Under the pieces are notes generated by a model. It was not told the DNA's origin and ran no database searches. It worked only from the letters and a program-made list of their open reading frames with translations. DNA of 64,000 nt from an uncultured Pseudomonadota bacterium. GTDB taxonomy: Bacteria; Pseudomonadota; Gammaproteobacteria; Steroidobacterales; Steroidobacteraceae. Positions within the stretch are counted from its first letter, which is position 1. Every line of letters starts with the position of its first letter. Positions 36,359 through 44,872 of this stretch are shown in pieces. Both the position numbers and the translations under genes were made by a program. Location of the stretch: assembly GCA_903884105.1 (NCBI GenBank), contig CAISDJ010000096.1:1-64000 (forward strand). Reading direction: 5' to 3'.

Positions 36359-36462
36359 CTTCCTAGCCGGAGAAGAGCGTGAAGCCGTGGGGTGTCATCA
36401 GTACCTGTATCATCGCCAGCCTCAAGGTTCCCGCCAGGCTCCGCACCGGAATTGTACACGGC

Positions 36463-37554
36463 ATGCTCATTCAGACCTCCTCCCAGCTCGAAGACGCCCT
36501 CGCCCAGCTCGAACGCCAGCCGTTCATCACGCTGGATACCGAGTTCATGCGGGAGAGCACCTACTATCCAAAGCTGTGCCTGATCCAGGCTGCCAACGCG
36601 CATGCGTGCGTCCTGCTCGATCCGCTGGCCCTCAAGAATCTGGAGCCGCTGTTCCGGCAGCTGGCGCAGCGTTCGCAGACCAAGATCCTGCACGCCGCGC
36701 GGCAGGATCTCGAGGTCATGAGCCTCGCCAGCAGACAGCCCCCGGCCGGACCGATTTTCGACACGCAGATTGCGGCCGCATTGCTCGGCCTGCCTGCGCA
36801 GATCGGCTACGGCGACCTCGTCTTTCGTCGCCTCGGTGTCGCGCTCGACAAGGGCCATACGCGGACGGATTGGACACGCCGACCGCTGTCCACGGAGCAG
36901 ATGGACTACGCCGCGGACGATGTCCGCTACCTCGTGCCCCTGTACGACGACCTGCGTGAGGCCTTGAGCGCCGCAGGACGCCTTCCGTGGCTCGAGGAAG
37001 AGACGAACCTGCTTGAAAACCCGGAGCTGTACCGGGTGGCGCCGGAAGACGCATGGAAGCGACTGAAGGGCCTCGAACGCCTGCAGCCGGCGCAACGTGC
37101 GGTCGCCAAGGCGCTGGCGGAATGGCGGGAGCACCAGGCCATGAAGTACGACAAGCCCCGCGGCTGGATCGTGCACGACGACACGCTACGGTCGATTGCC
37201 GAAACGCTGCCCGCAACACTGGACGAACTCGCCAATACGCGCAGCATGCCGCCGACGGTGGTCCGCAAGGTCGGCCAGGACCTGCTTGACCTGGTGAAGG
37301 CAGCCCGAGACAGGGCCGGGGACGAAGCCCCTGCGTCGCAGCCCTCCCGCCCCGAGTCCGAGGAGCTCGCGCTGGTCAAGCGCCTGAGCGCATTGATCCG
37401 TGAACTGGGTGAACAACTCGGCTTGAGCCCTGAGTTGCTCGCTACCCGCCGCGACATCGAGCAACTGGTGTATGGCCGCGATCCGGGCATCTTCGCCAAA
37501 GGCTGGCGCAAGGACGTGATCGGCGACCAGGTGATCGCCCTGGCCGGCCGATAG
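36463..37554 (+). CDS. rnd: Ribonuclease D
   Basis: 363 aa from the ATG at 36463 (MLIQTSSQLEDALAQL); earlier in-frame sequence is unrelated. 3'-5' exoribonuclease for tRNA and other RNA maturation. DEDD motifs: ITLDTEFMRESTYYPKLCLIQ (Exo I D-x-E), ILHAARQDLEVM (Exo II) and DYAADDVRYLVPLYDDL (Exo III Y-x3-D). An HRDC domain follows (about 205-290, with WIVHDDTLRSIAETLP). The extra C-terminal region is normal for the family. Confidence 0.96.
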   Translation: MLIQTSSQLEDALAQLERQPFITLDTEFMRESTYYPKLCLIQAANAHACVLLDPLALKNLEPLFRQLAQRSQTKILHAARQDLEVMSLASRQPPAGPIFDTQIAAALLGLPAQIGYGDLVFRRLGVALDKGHTRTDWTRRPLSTEQMDYAADDVRYLVPLYDDLREALSAAGRLPWLEEETNLLENPELYRVAPEDAWKRLKGLERLQPAQRAVAKALAEWREHQAMKYDKPRGWIVHDDTLRSIAETLPATLDELANTRSMPPTVVRKVGQDLLDLVKAARDRAGDEAPASQPSRPESEELALVKRLSALIRELGEQLGLSPELLATRRDIEQLVYGRDPGIFAKGWRKDVIGDQVIALAGR

Positions 37555-37586: not shown

Positions 37587-38528
37587 TTACTTCTTCTTTC
37601 GGGCCGGCTTGCGGACTGCCGACTTCTTGCGTGGCGGCGCTTTGCGAACTGCGGCCCGTTTGGTGGCCGGTTTGCGCCCCGCGGCCTTTGCAGCCGGTTT
37701 GCGCGCAGCAGTCTTCCGCTTCGCGCTCTTCTTCGCCCCTTTCTTCGCCGGCTTGCGCGCGGCTTTCTTTGCGGCTTTAGGCGCAGCCTTCTGCTTGGCC
37801 TTGGACTGCGCAGGCTTGCGCTTGGCGGCTTTCCGGACTGCCGGCTTCGCCGACTTCTTGCGCCTGGCCTGCGTTGGCTTGGCTGCAGCTGCAGCCTCCA
37901 TGCGGGCAAAGACCTCTTCCATCTCGCCCTCACCCTTGACGACGCGCAGCAGGCCGAGCTTGCGGTAGTGCTCGATCAGCGGTTGAGTCTGCGCGGCATA
38001 CACCTCCAGGCGCTTTGCAATGACCTCTTCCTTGTCATCGGGACGCTGGAACAGCTCGGGATGATCGGCGCAGTTGTCGCAGCGGGGCGTGGTGCCCGCC
38101 GGAGCGAAGGAAATACTGAACACGCGCCCACAGGTCCTGCAGATGCGGCGGCCGGCAAGCCGCTTGATCAACGTCCGCGTGCGGACTTCCATGAGCAGCA
38201 CGGCCTCGAGCGGCGCGCCAAGTTCGATCAGCATGGCATTGAGTGCCTTCGCCTGTTCGCTGTTGCGCGGAAAGCCGTCGAGGACGAAGCCCGCCTTCGC
38301 ATCCGGCTGGCCGAGGCGCTCGCGGATCAGCCCCAGGACGATATCGTCGGACACCAGTTGCCCCGCATCCATGGCCGCCTTGGCCTTGAGACCGAGCTCC
38401 GTCTGGCGCGCCACGGCGTCGCGCAGCAGGTCGCCCGAGGAGATCTGCGGAACCCCGTACTTCGCCTGCAGCCGCTGTGCCTGAGTGCCCTTGCCAGACC
38501 CCGGCGCGCCTAGTAATACGATTCTCAT
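37587..38528 (-). CDS. adk: Adenylate kinase with zinc-type LID and a histone-H1-like Lys/Ala/Arg tail
   Basis: 313 aa from the ATG at 38528, against about 215 for normal Adk. Residues 1-215 are a complete kinase: P-loop GAPGSGKGT (7-15), SSGDLLRDAVA, FVLDGFPRN, and a LID with four cysteines (C130, C133, C150, C153) that should bind zinc. From about residue 218 to 313 the protein is almost entirely Lys, Ala, Arg and Pro in short repeats (RKPAKKGAKKSAKRKTAAR). That resembles AlgP or histone-H1 C-termini, which bind nucleic acid. The frame is continuous, so this is a real fusion rather than an artefact of start choice. Confidence 0.95.
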   Translation of the reverse strand: MRIVLLGAPGSGKGTQAQRLQAKYGVPQISSGDLLRDAVARQTELGLKAKAAMDAGQLVSDDIVLGLIRERLGQPDAKAGFVLDGFPRNSEQAKALNAMLIELGAPLEAVLLMEVRTRTLIKRLAGRRICRTCGRVFSISFAPAGTTPRCDNCADHPELFQRPDDKEEVIAKRLEVYAAQTQPLIEHYRKLGLLRVVKGEGEMEEVFARMEAAAAAKPTQARRKKSAKPAVRKAAKRKPAQSKAKQKAAPKAAKKAARKPAKKGAKKSAKRKTAARKPAAKAAGRKPATKRAAVRKAPPRKKSAVRKPARKKK

Positions 38529-38693: not shown

Positions 38694-39965
38694 ATGCCTA
38701 AGCCCACGCCCCGGAACGCTTTTTACGCCCAGTCGGGTGGCGTCACCGCCGTCATCAATGCCTCCGCCTGTGGCGTCATCGAGACCTGCCGCAATCACAA
38801 GGGCCGCATCGGCAAGGTGTTCGCCGGCCGCAACGGCATCCTGGGCGCCCTGCAGGAAGACCTGATCGATACCAGCAAGGAATCGGCTGCCGCGATCCGC
38901 GCCCTCAGGCACACCCCGGCAGGCGCCTTCGGGTCGGCCCGCTACAAGCTCAAGAAGTTCGAGGACTCGACCGCGCAGTACGAACGACTGATCGAGGTCT
39001 TCAAGGCGCACGACATCGGGTATTTCTTCTATAACGGTGGCGGCGACTCGGCCGACACGTGCCTGAAAGTGGCGCAGCTCGCGAGCCGCATCGACTACCC
39101 CCTCAAGGCCATTCACGTGCCGAAAACCGTGGACAACGACCTGCCGCTGACCGATTGCTGCCCCGGGTTCGGTTCCGTTGCCAAGTACGTCGCGGTTTCG
39201 ATCCGCGAGGCTGGATTCGACGTGGCCTCCATGGCCCGCACCTCGACCAAGGTGTTCATCCTGGAAGTCATGGGTCGCCATGCCGGCTGGATCGCCGCAG
39301 CGGGAGGGCTTGCGGCTGAAAAGGCGGGAGATTCCCCGCAGATCATCCTGTTTCCCGAGATCCCCTTCGACGAGGACAAGTTCTGCGCGAAGGTGCAGGA
39401 CTGCGTCAAGCGGTATGGCTACTGCTCCGTCGTCGTGTCCGAAGGCGTGAAGAACCCTGAGGGCAAGTTCCTGGCCGATGCGGGTACCCGCGATGCCTTC
39501 GGCCACGCGCAGCTCGGGGGGGTCGCCCCGGTCGTGGCGGAAATCGTCAAACGCCGGCTGGGCTACAAGTATCACTGGGCGGTGGCCGACTACCTGCAGC
39601 GGGCCGCCCGCCACATTGCCTCGAAGGTTGACGTCGAGCAGGCCTATGCCGTCGGCAAGGCTGCCGTGGAGCTCGCGCTGAAGGGCGCCAACTCGGTCAT
39701 GCCGTCCATCGTCCGGTTGGCAGACAAGCCCTATCGCTGGAAGATTGGCGTGGTGAAGCTTGAGGACGTCGCCAACCGGGAAAAGAAGCTACCGCGCGAC
39801 TACATCACGGCAGACGGCATGCACATCACTGCCAAGGGCCGCCGGTACCTCGCCCCCCTCATCAAGGGCGAAGACTATCCCCCCTATCGCGACGGGCTAC
39901 CGCAGTACGTGACCCTGAAGAACACCCCGGTCAAGCGCAAGCTGAAAGCAGACTTCGTGGTATAG
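38694..39965 (+). CDS. pfp: Pyrophosphate-dependent 6-phosphofructokinase
   Basis: 423 aa. Reversibly phosphorylates fructose 6-phosphate using PPi. The key residues point to PPi rather than ATP: the loop is NGGGDSADT (115-119 region, Asp where ATP enzymes have Gly) and the catalytic stretch is PKTVDNDLPLTD with Lys where ATP enzymes have Gly (residue 144). The N-terminus AFYAQSGGVTAVINA and VMGRHAGWIAA are conserved. The next gene is a membrane pyrophosphatase, a pairing also known in methanotrophs. No ATP-PFK gene is in the window. Confidence 0.93.
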   Translation: MPKPTPRNAFYAQSGGVTAVINASACGVIETCRNHKGRIGKVFAGRNGILGALQEDLIDTSKESAAAIRALRHTPAGAFGSARYKLKKFEDSTAQYERLIEVFKAHDIGYFFYNGGGDSADTCLKVAQLASRIDYPLKAIHVPKTVDNDLPLTDCCPGFGSVAKYVAVSIREAGFDVASMARTSTKVFILEVMGRHAGWIAAAGGLAAEKAGDSPQIILFPEIPFDEDKFCAKVQDCVKRYGYCSVVVSEGVKNPEGKFLADAGTRDAFGHAQLGGVAPVVAEIVKRRLGYKYHWAVADYLQRAARHIASKVDVEQAYAVGKAAVELALKGANSVMPSIVRLADKPYRWKIGVVKLEDVANREKKLPRDYITADGMHITAKGRRYLAPLIKGEDYPPYRDGLPQYVTLKNTPVKRKLKADFVV

Positions 39966-40105: not shown

Positions 40106-42139
40106 ATGTTGAGTACTTACGGGCTCTGGCTGGCCATTGGCGCCGGAATCCTGGCCATCATCTACGGCATTTTCTCTGCGCAGTGGATCGTGCGCCAGCC
40201 GGCTGGCAACGAGCGCATGCAGGAAATTGCAGCCGCCATCCAGGCGGGCGCGCAGGCTTACCTGAATCGCCAGTACTCGACCATCGCCATCGTTGGCGTC
40301 GTCCTGTTCCTGGTCCTCGGGTTTGCGCTCAACTGGCCTACGGCCGGTGGCTTCCTCGTCGGCTCGGTGCTGTCCGGGCTCGCAGGCTACATCGGCATGC
40401 ACGTCTCCGTGCGCGCCAACGTCCGCACGGCTCAGGCAGCCAGCGTCGGTCTGAACCCTGCGCTGCAGGTTGCGTTCCGCGGCGGCGCCATCACCGGGAT
40501 GCTCGTAGTCGGCCTCGGCCTCCTCGGCGTGGCTGCGTACTACCTCGTGATGCTGCAAGTCACGGATGGCGACACTGCGCTGCACTCGCTGGTTGGCCTC
40601 GCCTTCGGCGGTTCGCTGATCTCGATCTTCGCGCGACTGGGCGGCGGCATCTTCACGAAGGGCGCTGACGTCGGCGCCGACCTCGTGGGCAAGGTCGAAG
40701 CCGGCATTCCCGAAGATGACCCCCGCAACCCTGCCGTGATCGCGGACAACGTGGGCGACAACGTGGGCGACTGCGCCGGCATGGCCGCGGACCTGTTCGA
40801 AACCTACGCCGTGACCGTGGTGGCCACGATGCTGCTCGCCGGCCTCCTGGTCAGCGAAGTCGGCGCGAATGCGGTGCTCTACCCGCTGGTGCTCGGCGCC
40901 GTGTCCATCGTGGGCTCCATCATCGGCACCTTCTTCGTGAAAGTGTCTGACGGCGGCAAGATCATGAACGCCCTGTACCGTGGCGTCTTCGTGTCAGCCG
41001 TCGTGGCTGCCATCGCGTTCTATCCCGTCACGATGATGATGATGGGCGACATCGCCATGGACATGTACTTCTGTGCGCTCATCGGCCTCGGCCTCACGGG
41101 AGCCATGATCGTCATCACCGAGTACTACACGGCCACCGAATACGCACCCGTGCGCTATGTCGCGGCGGCTTCGCAGACGGGTCATGGCACCAACGTCATC
41201 GCCGGTCTTGCCATCTCGATGAAGTCGACAGCGCTGCCGGTGCTCGCCGTCTGCGCCGCCATCTGGGGCTCGTTCGAACTCGGCGGCTTGTACGGCATCG
41301 CGATTGCGGCAACAGCCATGCTGTCGATGACCGGCATGATCGTTGCGCTCGACGCGTACGGCCCGATCACCGACAACGGCGGCGGCATTGCCGAAATGTC
41401 CGGCCTGCCGAAGAACGTGCGTACCATCACGGACGCGCTGGATGCCGTGGGTAACACGACGAAGGCCGTCACGAAGGGCTATGCCATCGGCTCGGCAGGC
41501 CTCGCCGCGCTCGTGCTGTTCGCAGACTACACCCACAACCTCGATGCCATCGGCAAGCTGCAGCCGTTCAGCCTGTCCGACCCGGCCGTCATCATCGGCC
41601 TGTTCATCGGCGGCATGGTCCCTTACCTGTTCGGCGCGATGGCAATGGAAGCCGTGGGCCGTGCCGCGAGTTCCGTGGTGGTGGAAGTCCGCCGCCAGTT
41701 CCGCGAGATCAAGGGCATCATGGAAGGCACCGCCAAGCCTGACTACTCGAAGGCGGTCGACCTGCTGACACGCGCGGCGATCAAGGAAATGATCATCCCG
41801 TCGCTGCTGCCGATCCTGGTTCCGGTGGTGGTCGGATTCGGCATGAACATCCTGATGGGTCCGGGCGCAGGCGTGAAGGCGCTGGGCGGCCTGCTCATCG
41901 GCACGATCGTCACCGGCATCTTCCTCGCGATTTCGATGTGCACCGGTGGCGGTGCCTGGGACAACGCGAAGAAGTACATCGAGGAAGGCAACTTCGGCGG
42001 CAAGGGTTCCGAGACGCACAAGGCCGCCGTGACCGGCGACACCGTGGGCGACCCCTACAAGGACACCGCTGGCCCTGCGATCAACCCGTTGATCAAGATC
42101 ATCAACATCGTGGCGCTGTTGCTGGTGCCTTTGCTGTAA
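40106..42139 (+). CDS. hppA: Membrane proton-translocating pyrophosphatase
   Basis: 677 aa with about 16 membrane helices. Couples PPi hydrolysis to H+ export. The signature [24 protein letters not shown] is intact, with the acidic [16 protein letters not shown] region. The K+-independence marker Lys is present in [14 protein letters not shown] (K453), so it should be the K+-insensitive H+-pumping type. GGGAG lies before the ATG. It follows pfp by 140 bases and has its own strong terminator. Confidence 0.97.
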
Positions 42140-42249: not shown

Positions 42250-44544
42250 TCAGACGGCTCTGGCGGCCACGCGGTTCATTGGCTGGGGGCGCCCGAGCTG
42301 GTAGCCCTGAACGAAGTCGACGCCCATGCGCTTGGCGGCCTCGAGGGCGCCCATGTCCTCGACGTGCTCGGCCACCACCTTGAACTTCAAAGTACGCGCA
42401 AGCTTGATCATCGCAGCCACCAGCGCCTGGTTGACGGTGTCGGCAGCCAGATTGCTGATGAACGAACCGTCGATCTTGATGTAGTCGAGCGCCAGGTTCT
42501 TGAGGTTCCCGAACGAGGACAGTCCGCGGCCGAAGTCATCGAGCGCGAAATGGCACCCCATGCCGTGCAGCACGCCGATGAAGCGGCGGGAATGGTCCAT
42601 GTTGGTGATGACGGCGTTTTCCGTCACCTCGAAGCAGATCTGGTGCGGCGAGACTCCCGTGCGATCCAGGCAGTCGACGACGAACTCAAGGAACTGCGGA
42701 TCCCCCAGCGTCTGGCCGGACAGGTTGATGGCCAGGCTGCGGCCGACGGGCAGGCGAATGCCACCGCGACCCAGCGCGGTGAACGCGTGCTGCACCACCC
42801 AGCGATCCACTTCTCCCATGAGCCGGTAGCGTTCTGCAGCACGCAGGAACTCCGAAGGCAGGATGCCGCCGGGAACCGCGTCGTCCTGGAGACGCAACAG
42901 CACCTCGAATGCCGGTCCATCTCCGGTGGCGCTCGACGTGGCCACGATGGGCTGCATCAGCAGCTCGAAGCTGCCTTCCTTGAGCGCGAACTGCAGCTTC
43001 TGCAACCACTGGATCTCGCCGCGGTGCCGGGCCGCGGCCTCGTCGCGCGATGAGTAGACGTGGACGTGGTTGCCCTGCTTCTTGGCGACGTAGCAGGCCG
43101 AGTCGGCGGCGCTGATCACTTCATCGAGGGCGCCGCTCTCGCTCGACACCTCGATGAGACCGACGCTGACGCCGACGGTGAAGATCTTGTCCTTCCATAC
43201 GAAACGGTAGTCGTTGACCTTCTGGACCACGTCGTCCGCAATCTGGCGGGCCTTCTCGAGCGGGCAGCCGACGAGCAGCAGGCCGAACTCGTCCCCCCCC
43301 AGACGTCCCGCCGTATCCGAGTCACGGACCGTATCCTTGATGAGCGCAGCGACCTCGCGGAGCATGCTGTCGCCCGCCGCGTGGCCGCATGAATCGTTCA
43401 CCGTCTTGAAGCGGTCCAGGTCGAGATAGCACAGCGCGTGGCGGGAGGAATTGGCGCGAGCCAATTCCAGCGATTCCTGCACGCGGCGCTCGAACTCACG
43501 ACGATTGGCAAGGCCCGTGAGCGCGTCATGGCTCGCCTGGTACGACATCTGTTGCGTCAGGCCGCGCATCTCGCTGACGTCGCGGATCACCACCACGGCC
43601 CCGACCAGTTCGCTGCGCTGGTTCTTGAGGGGCGACGCGGACAGCTCCACCGAGCGCTCGTTCTCGCCGCTGCGCGACACCATCAGGCCACGGCGGCCGA
43701 CGGTCACCCGCGCTTTCGATGCGAGGCACTGTTTGACCGGATCGCCGAGCGAACGGCGGTCGTTCTCGTCCACGAGCGCGATGACTTCCGTGATGAGCTT
43801 GCCAAGCGCGTCAGGCGCCGCAATGCCCATCAGCTGCTCGGCAGCCTGGTTCAAGTAGTCGATGTGCCCGGCAGCGTCCGTCGTGATGACGCCTTCACCG
43901 ATGGAATCAAGCGTTTCCCAGGCCGTGGGCCGGGACCGGGCCACGGCCGTGGACGCGGTGGTACGCGGCCCCATTTCAACCAGCGTGATCAGCAGAGCCG
44001 GCAGGCCCTGGTAGTCGATGCGCGTACAAGCGAGCTCAACCCTCGCTGTCTGGTTGACGGCGGGATGCAGCTCGACCTCGAGCCGGGTCGGCGCCTGCTC
44101 TTCACGCAACTTGCGCTTGATGTACTCGCCCACCAGCCCTTCATAGTCGTGGTGGACCACCGTGGCCAACGGCTTGCCAAGCAATTCAACGCCCGAGTTT
44201 GCCCCAACCAGCGCTGCGAACCGGTCGTTCGCGAAGACCAGGGTGTCGCGATGGACCGCTACGGCTTCGTGGAGGCTCGTCAGAACATCGCCGATGACCT
44301 GCTCGCGCGCTTCCAGCTTGCTGTCGAACCTCGATACCTGGTCGAGCAGCTCGTTGGCGGCAGTGGCGAGCGTTTCGGCACTGCCATCCGCGGATACCCG
44401 GGCAGCAAAGCGACCCGTCCGGACAATGCCGCTCAGCTCCTCGGCGGCACGGGTGAGCGCCAGGCCGTTGCGTCTGCACCAAACGAGCAAACCAGCCAGG
44501 GAGGCTGCGAGGATCGCAAGCAGGAGGGTCACGGTGCCGGGCAT
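42250..44544 (-). CDS. Membrane-anchored PAS-PAS-GGDEF-EAL cyclic-di-GMP enzyme
   Basis: 764 aa from the ATG at 44544. One membrane helix (about 4-22), a coiled linker, two PAS domains (about 90-190 and 215-325, the second ending VVIRDVSEM), then GGDEF (about 340-500) and EAL (about 515-755). The cyclase site RLGGDEFGLLL is intact. In the EAL domain the first motif reads EVLLRL, but the catalytic Glu and the remaining residues (NLSGQ, FEVTENAV, DDFGRG, KIDGSFI, AEHVED, GYQLGRP) are kept. Both activities are therefore possible. Signals are probably sensed through PAS. The gene stands alone. Confidence 0.93.
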   Translation of the reverse strand: MPGTVTLLLAILAASLAGLLVWCRRNGLALTRAAEELSGIVRTGRFAARVSADGSAETLATAANELLDQVSRFDSKLEAREQVIGDVLTSLHEAVAVHRDTLVFANDRFAALVGANSGVELLGKPLATVVHHDYEGLVGEYIKRKLREEQAPTRLEVELHPAVNQTARVELACTRIDYQGLPALLITLVEMGPRTTASTAVARSRPTAWETLDSIGEGVITTDAAGHIDYLNQAAEQLMGIAAPDALGKLITEVIALVDENDRRSLGDPVKQCLASKARVTVGRRGLMVSRSGENERSVELSASPLKNQRSELVGAVVVIRDVSEMRGLTQQMSYQASHDALTGLANRREFERRVQESLELARANSSRHALCYLDLDRFKTVNDSCGHAAGDSMLREVAALIKDTVRDSDTAGRLGGDEFGLLLVGCPLEKARQIADDVVQKVNDYRFVWKDKIFTVGVSVGLIEVSSESGALDEVISAADSACYVAKKQGNHVHVYSSRDEAAARHRGEIQWLQKLQFALKEGSFELLMQPIVATSSATGDGPAFEVLLRLQDDAVPGGILPSEFLRAAERYRLMGEVDRWVVQHAFTALGRGGIRLPVGRSLAINLSGQTLGDPQFLEFVVDCLDRTGVSPHQICFEVTENAVITNMDHSRRFIGVLHGMGCHFALDDFGRGLSSFGNLKNLALDYIKIDGSFISNLAADTVNQALVAAMIKLARTLKFKVVAEHVEDMGALEAAKRMGVDFVQGYQLGRPQPMNRVAARAV

Positions 44545-44872
44545 GGGAACTAGCAGGACGCTCCTCTGAACTGTATTGGTCGCAGCTGGCAATGCAAAAC
44601 TGTGGCGCAAGCCGTTGACGCAGCATATCTGATGCCCGACGCCCAACTTGGAGGATTGACCATAATCGTCATGGCCTTTTCTGGATGGGGACCGACTGCA
44701 GTCAAGTTCGACGCCGGCAACCGCCCCCTTCCCGGCAGCCGTCCGGGCGGCTGCCCAGACCCGGCAAGCGGCTTATCTTGGGGCCGGGCGCCGATGTGCT
44801 TTACACTTGCGCCACCGCACCGGGACCGCCCCCGGCCGCAGGCACCCCCACGACTTCGGACAGAGAGTACGC

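Follow-up and report, generated by a model that had tools for sequence, protein, structure and literature searches.

Why should an adenylate kinase end in a tail that resembles histone H1? Adenylate kinase (Adk) balances ATP, ADP, and AMP and is generally regarded as diffusing freely. In the window—the whole stretch of 64,000 nucleotides analyzed here, from a bacterium of the Steroidobacteraceae—the adk gene continues beyond the enzyme into a long C terminus rich in Lys, Ala, and Arg. Herein, it is considered whether the enzyme is intact, whether the tail is a genuine part of the protein, how far such tails are spread, and what this one may bind.

Architecture of the adenylate kinase and its gene setting

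The adenylate kinase ORF (37587..38528, minus strand) starts at the ATG of MRIVLLGAPG and encodes 313 aa. Its core comprises aa 1–214 (37887..38528, minus strand), as delimited by Pfam and NCBIfam matches, matches to solved structures, and an AlphaFold2 model. The protein scores 182.3 bits with Pfam ADK and 30.5 bits with ADK_lid, both above the cut-offs, as well as 241 bits with NCBIfam TIGR01351 (cut-off 168) and 274.4 bits with NF001380 (cut-off 251). The ADK_lid match covers aa 128–165 of the 314-residue translation. Read from the translation, the zinc-type LID spans aa 130–153 (38070..38141, minus strand) and contains the cysteines C130, C133, C150, and C153. C130, C133, and C153 are invariant in alignment A1, in which the tailed relatives other than the congener have a shorter LID. 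Also invariant are GAPGSGKGT, R36, R88, R123, and RPDD, which we take to be functional residues of the P-loop, the nucleotide-binding arginines, and the LID. Only one match to PF00406 is present in the 3.7-Mb genome (listed completeness 99.29%).

By sequence, the core comes closest, among solved structures, to zinc adenylate kinases, e.g., 5g3y and 1zin, and it aligns with both over its whole length. When the AlphaFold2 model is used to search by fold, 1zin ranks first; this model was computed from nine aligned sequences and shows mean pLDDT values of 73–92 over the blocks of the core. Judged from its sequence, the core is an intact, normal zinc-LID adenylate kinase. Compared with the 60 solved adenylate kinase chains listed, which are 181–245 residues long, the window's protein measures 313 aa; thus, none of the listed chains has a comparable tail.

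The convergent neighbor of adk is a ribonuclease D–like gene (exonuclease and HRDC by Pfam; 36379..37554, plus strand), and the divergent neighbor belongs to the phosphofructokinase family (Pfam PFK; 38694..39965, plus strand) and is probably pyrophosphate-dependent. Next follow a membrane proton pyrophosphatase (Pfam H_PPase, 911.6 bits; 40106..42139, plus strand) and, downstream of it, a gene for a PAS-GGDEF-EAL protein assigned by Pfam (42250..44646, minus strand). Because adk lies near the phosphofructokinase and then the proton pyrophosphatase, its setting suggests a pyrophosphate-based energy metabolism; it says nothing about the tail.

The tail is coding and under constraint

The histone H1–like tail (aa 215–313; 37590..37886, minus strand) is defined by its composition, by in-frame conservation with the congener, and by low pLDDT. 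It runs in frame to the stop codon given by the ORF translation (37587..37589, minus strand), and its 99 residues include 31 K, 13 R, 30 A, and 10 P, with no D or E. An earlier note, made from the letters of the DNA, had described a complete zinc-LID adenylate kinase with an H1- or AlgP-like tail of about 96 residues at 37587..37875. This architecture is borne out by the Pfam and NCBIfam matches of the core and by the tail composition, and the placement was right within a few codons. For aa 227–313, pLDDT lies below 50 nearly throughout—a low confidence that does not amount to proof of disorder—and the tail is predicted to be disordered. Searched alone against Pfam (E 0.1) and NCBIfam, the tail gave no match, the chlamydial-type HC2 family (PF07382) included.

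In the congener (G001), the core is 91.6% identical, and the tail is 93 residues long with 44 K+R, the same number as in the window. Gaps between the two tails are whole codons, and the differences at codon positions 1, 2, and 3 number 21, 19, and 47. The resulting dN/dS is about 0.20 for the tail, compared with 0.08 for the core; the tail value is rough, coming from one species pair and from a low-complexity alignment that favors matches. The 95 aligned tail codons contain 32 amino acid substitutions—19 small for small, four swaps of Lys and Arg, nine in which a basic residue is gained or lost, and none to an acid. These classes are close to those expected from random mutation of the same codons. 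Hence, the case for constraint is drawn from the low ratio and the kept charge, not from the classes of replacement. On this comparison, the tail is coding and under constraint. A frameshift or wrong reading frame as its origin is ruled out by the conservation of the congener's tail in the same frame, and an assembly artifact is ruled out by ten tailed genomes listed as one contig (G011, G028, G074, G088, G126, G128, G162, G165, G329, and G413).

Distribution and evolution of adenylate kinase tails

An Adk was counted as tailed when its tail had at least 40 aa with K+R of at least 25%. Among the 31 genomes of the window's family with a whole Adk, 12 are tailed and 19 are tail-less. The earlier note had coupled tail-less orthologues in close relatives with a frameshift as the source of the tail; such orthologues do exist in these 19 genomes, yet they reflect separate gain or loss and not a frameshift in the window. 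Across the class, 370 genomes were searched, 349 of which gave an Adk match at 1e-30. Tailed enzymes were found in 78 of 113 examined genomes, from 36 families; this proportion is biased upward since mostly the best scorers for a tail-bearing query were examined, and the safe figure is 78 or more of the 370 genomes searched. The 113 genomes are composed of 108 (76 of them tailed) plus two tailed and three tail-less genomes from the family survey. Left out of the tailed count are L109 and L136, with runs of N inside the K/A tail, and L021, with an Arg-rich tail of 34 aa. The same-order genomes G040, G046, G047, and G053, the last of which is cut by its contig end, are likewise uncounted. L113 is counted as tailed despite the presence of N. 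Marginal cases are L166 (47 aa) as well as four genomes of family f135, with a K+R of about 25% and a further segment behind the basic part. In f135 (L123, L168), the basic part of Adk is followed by a Lys/Glu-rich segment, possibly a coiled coil.

A tree was built from 168 Adk cores, of which 102 are tailed. On it, the tail state switches no fewer than 12 times; the tree was made quickly, has weak deep branches, and carries SH-aLRT as its sole support measure. A tailed Adk is found in the cultured relative Povalibacter uvarum DSM 26723 (L035). The window's Adk falls within an all-tailed clade of 11 rows (support 97), which includes loci labeled Povalibacter and Steroidobacter, and the nearest rows outside it are tail-less (L015, then L007, L008, L009, and L020). 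The orthologues and the length variation to which the earlier note had pointed are both found in this clade: the tails are 59 to 228 aa long, with K+R of 33–47%, no aromatic residue, and 0–5 acidic residues. Another 71 rows, from at least 29 families, form a group apart that is tailed throughout, except for three unscored rows with N runs. The same-order cores L024, L054, L059, and L060 sit in the large tailed clade, away from their own order, which may reflect transfer or tree error. As far as core sequences tell, the Adk tail seems to have arisen several times, and the tails are of the same basic type in every lineage inspected.

Could such tails simply be GC-rich KKA/KPA codon repeats that expand at a tolerant C terminus and carry no function? 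Near-neutral growth of this kind would account for the hypervariable lengths (47–318 aa, median 187, in 67 complete class tails with net charges of 14–112, median 64), for the patchy distribution, and for the strongly repetitive tails of many class members. Against it stand the ratio of 0.20 in the Adk tail and, in the same species pair, 0.18 in the tail of a second enzyme (SucD), the equal charge of the congener's tail, and the scarcity of acidic residues in the clade. A tree with 12 or more changes of tail state and with large all-tailed clades is likewise at odds with it, and functionless growth is judged very improbable.

Basic tails in Bradyrhizobium and in annotation databases

Tailed adenylate kinases also occur in Bradyrhizobium, with tails of 93–102 aa; over the aligned part, their core shares about 42% identity with that of the window. 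One of them (L041) matches the NCBI model NF010381 (PRK13808) over aa 1–292, tail included, with 484.4 bits (cut-off 426). The window's Adk reaches 193.5 bits with this model, well below the cut-off, and its best stretch lies in the core. Both types combine an adenylate kinase core with a subsequent Lys/Ala-rich tail; the PRK13808 type, however, has a shorter LID region and few Arg in its K/A tail, whereas the window's tail has many. Tail peptides helped to find the five Bradyrhizobium loci, so that the tree is one without tail-less alphaproteobacterial Adk, and a separate origin there would follow only indirectly.

Since PRK13808 spans the tailed protein end to end, a basic Adk tail is already present in annotation databases. 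A literature search found no paper describing a lysine-rich tail of a bacterial adenylate kinase, and in the accessible part of PMC3574117, "adenylate kinase" occurs only as a reference title. What is new here is a different lineage and tail, a spread beyond that implied by the single NCBI model, and a tail on a second enzyme.

A similar tail on SucD and other basic C termini

The second enzyme is SucD, the succinyl-CoA ligase alpha subunit of the same genome (L248; G000:C113:86000-86854, minus strand), which ends in a K/A/R tail of 81 residues with K+R of 43%; the congener's SucD tail has 70 residues. Like the window's Adk, it is an ATP-handling enzyme with a similar basic tail, but the core is unrelated and the tail is richer in alternating KA/KT. 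SucD was first met in a scan for K/A codon patterns and was then followed with TIGR01019 in 79 genomes, 74 of which have a readable C terminus. It is tailed in 23 of 29 genomes of the window's family, as opposed to none of 45 outside. The pairing of both tails is lineage-specific, because SucD is tail-less in all 45 outside genomes although 21 of these have a tailed Adk. Within the family, SucD is tailed in 11 of 11 genomes with a tailed Adk and in 12 of 18 without (p 0.058, not significant, with relatedness uncontrolled).

The same codon scan finds further K/A-rich ends in the window's genome, on ribosomal protein L17 (named by eye), a small protein (about 63 residues), and a short peptide (about 22 residues). 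The pattern is noisy, with four sites in this genome compared with two in the reversed control, and the sites in G017, G028, and G074 are barely above control. The extended L17 is seen at L074 (G000:C112 near 14766) and L216 (G004). Small H1-like proteins with a MATRKKK start and an RPPQ or RLPQ end lie at L072 (G000:C27 near 65156) and L201 (G004:C7 near 421146). Both are weakly similar to chlamydial HC2, below the Pfam cut-off, with E 0.042 for the protein of the window's genome and 7.8e-5 for its G004 relative. A short peptide of about 22–26 residues with a MATKAKK start is present in four of the family's genomes (L071, L187, L199, and L217). In relatives, K/A-rich ends are carried by SucD, HU, topoisomerase I, ribosomal proteins, acyltransferase E2, and a glyoxalase-like protein, named by eye except for HU (Pfam). 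The earlier note had treated the tail as a trait of Adk; the SucD tail, the K/A-rich end of L17, and the small H1-like protein speak against its being special to this enzyme.

A genome-wide habit of basic tails is equally not seen in the 14% of the genome sampled, SucD, L17, and the small H1-like proteins notwithstanding. This sample (the window plus 35 stretches; 527,706 bases) contains 9,024 stop-to-stop ORFs of at least 30 aa, four of which pass a test for K/R richness. The window's Adk has the only long H1-like tail among them; the remainder comprises one ORF of 41 codons and two that are presumably ribosomal proteins L20 and L35. By this count, the Adk tail exceeds what chance would yield. 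A search of the genome's own proteins with the tail alone gave, besides Adk, three weak matches (E 0.002–0.17) that proved to be noise on reading.

These observations bear on a general physical effect, by which the tail would serve solubility, charge balance, or clustering with acidic proteins or membranes, and nucleic acid would not be the functional partner. The preservation of composition while the sequence drifts fits such an effect, as do the tails on unrelated proteins in relatives. However, many proteins would then be expected to be tailed, and only Adk is long-tailed in the sampled part of the genome; the same basic type of tail in each lineage inspected also argues against it. It is considered unlikely.

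Comparison with AlgP and PhaF

The nearest known parallels are AlgP and PhaF of Pseudomonas, which, according to the accessible parts of PMC9239181 and PMC3574117, join a disordered, Lys/Ala/Pro-rich, H1-like C-terminal domain to an unrelated N-terminal domain, with repeat numbers that vary. In the portions available of PMC9239181, PMC3574117, and PMC13052382, the tails are described as binding DNA and positioning granules along the nucleoid. The window's tail shares the predicted disorder, the richness in Lys, Ala, and Pro, and the near absence of acidic residues. It differs in its many Arg and in being fused to an enzyme. It also lacks tandem KPAA repeats, with one KPAA in 99 residues, whereas AlgP has 25 perfect KPAA repeats in a 154-residue repeat region (PMC9239181, seen in part).

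Polyphosphate as a ligand

The earlier note had named polyphosphate beside nucleic acid as a possible anchor. In this reading, the tail would hold Adk on polyphosphate or its granules and couple polyphosphate-driven phosphorylation of AMP and ADP to the adenylate pool. AlgP, with a tail of similar composition, localizes to polyphosphate granules according to the part of PMC9239181 at hand, and the window's genome encodes both polyphosphate kinases, PPK1 and PPK2. The latter is represented by two matches at G000:C79:57620-59050 (minus strand), each in a frame of 491 aa, which likely are one two-domain PPK2.

Among 80 genomes, 32 with a tailed and 48 with a tail-less Adk, Fisher tests reveal no association with PPK1 (25/32 versus 39/48; p 0.78), PPK2 (21/32 versus 37/48; p 0.31), or either of them (26/32 versus 42/48; p 0.53). 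Independent pairs on the tree display no trend, and the five supported ones are too few to carry weight. Neither kinase was detected in six of the 32 tailed genomes (G004, G022, G309, G128, G257, and G263; completeness 92–99%), so in general the tail cannot owe its retention to polyphosphate. SucD, moreover, has the same kind of tail and no known polyphosphate role. As the specific ligand, polyphosphate is thus not supported by this comparison, and a polyphosphate tether is regarded as unlikely. It can still be a ligand here, since the window's own genome has both kinases.

A possible tether to nucleic acid

The preferred reading, held with moderate confidence and by analogy, is that the tail acts as a polyanion tether for ATP-handling enzymes, mainly to nucleic acid. 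A disordered, multivalent, polycationic tail would hold Adk electrostatically on polyanions, chiefly nucleic acid—either nucleoid DNA or RNA and ribosomes—with polyphosphate as an optional second ligand. This would place the exchange of AMP, ADP, and ATP where nucleotides are used. That the tail binds polyanions is suggested by its composition and by analogy, and a benefit from the position of Adk in the cell would follow from this. Nucleic acid is thought the likeliest partner because AlgP and PhaF tails of this make-up bind DNA and place granules, as far as the accessible parts of those papers go.

In favor of this tether are the positive charge that is kept while tail sequence and length drift, the repeated appearance of the tail, its presence on SucD, and the K/A-rich ends in relatives that include those of ribosomal proteins, HU, and topoisomerase I. 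Speaking against it, the 19 tail-less members of the family survey manage without a tail, the pairing with a tailed SucD is specific to one lineage and not significant within the family, and K/A tails also occur on proteins that have no obvious link with nucleic acid, such as the glyoxalase-like protein and acyltransferase E2 (both named by eye).

More tentatively, and with appreciably less confidence than in the tether itself, essential ATP-balancing enzymes may repeatedly have been made nucleic acid–associated by H1-like tails—Adk in at least 36 of the gammaproteobacterial families examined, joined by SucD in the family of the window—and could form a nucleoid- or ribosome-bound layer of nucleotide regeneration. 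The tailed and tail-less relatives constitute a large natural comparison set. A recurrent and constrained basic tail, common to Adk and SucD, suggests selection for where in the cell ATP is balanced.
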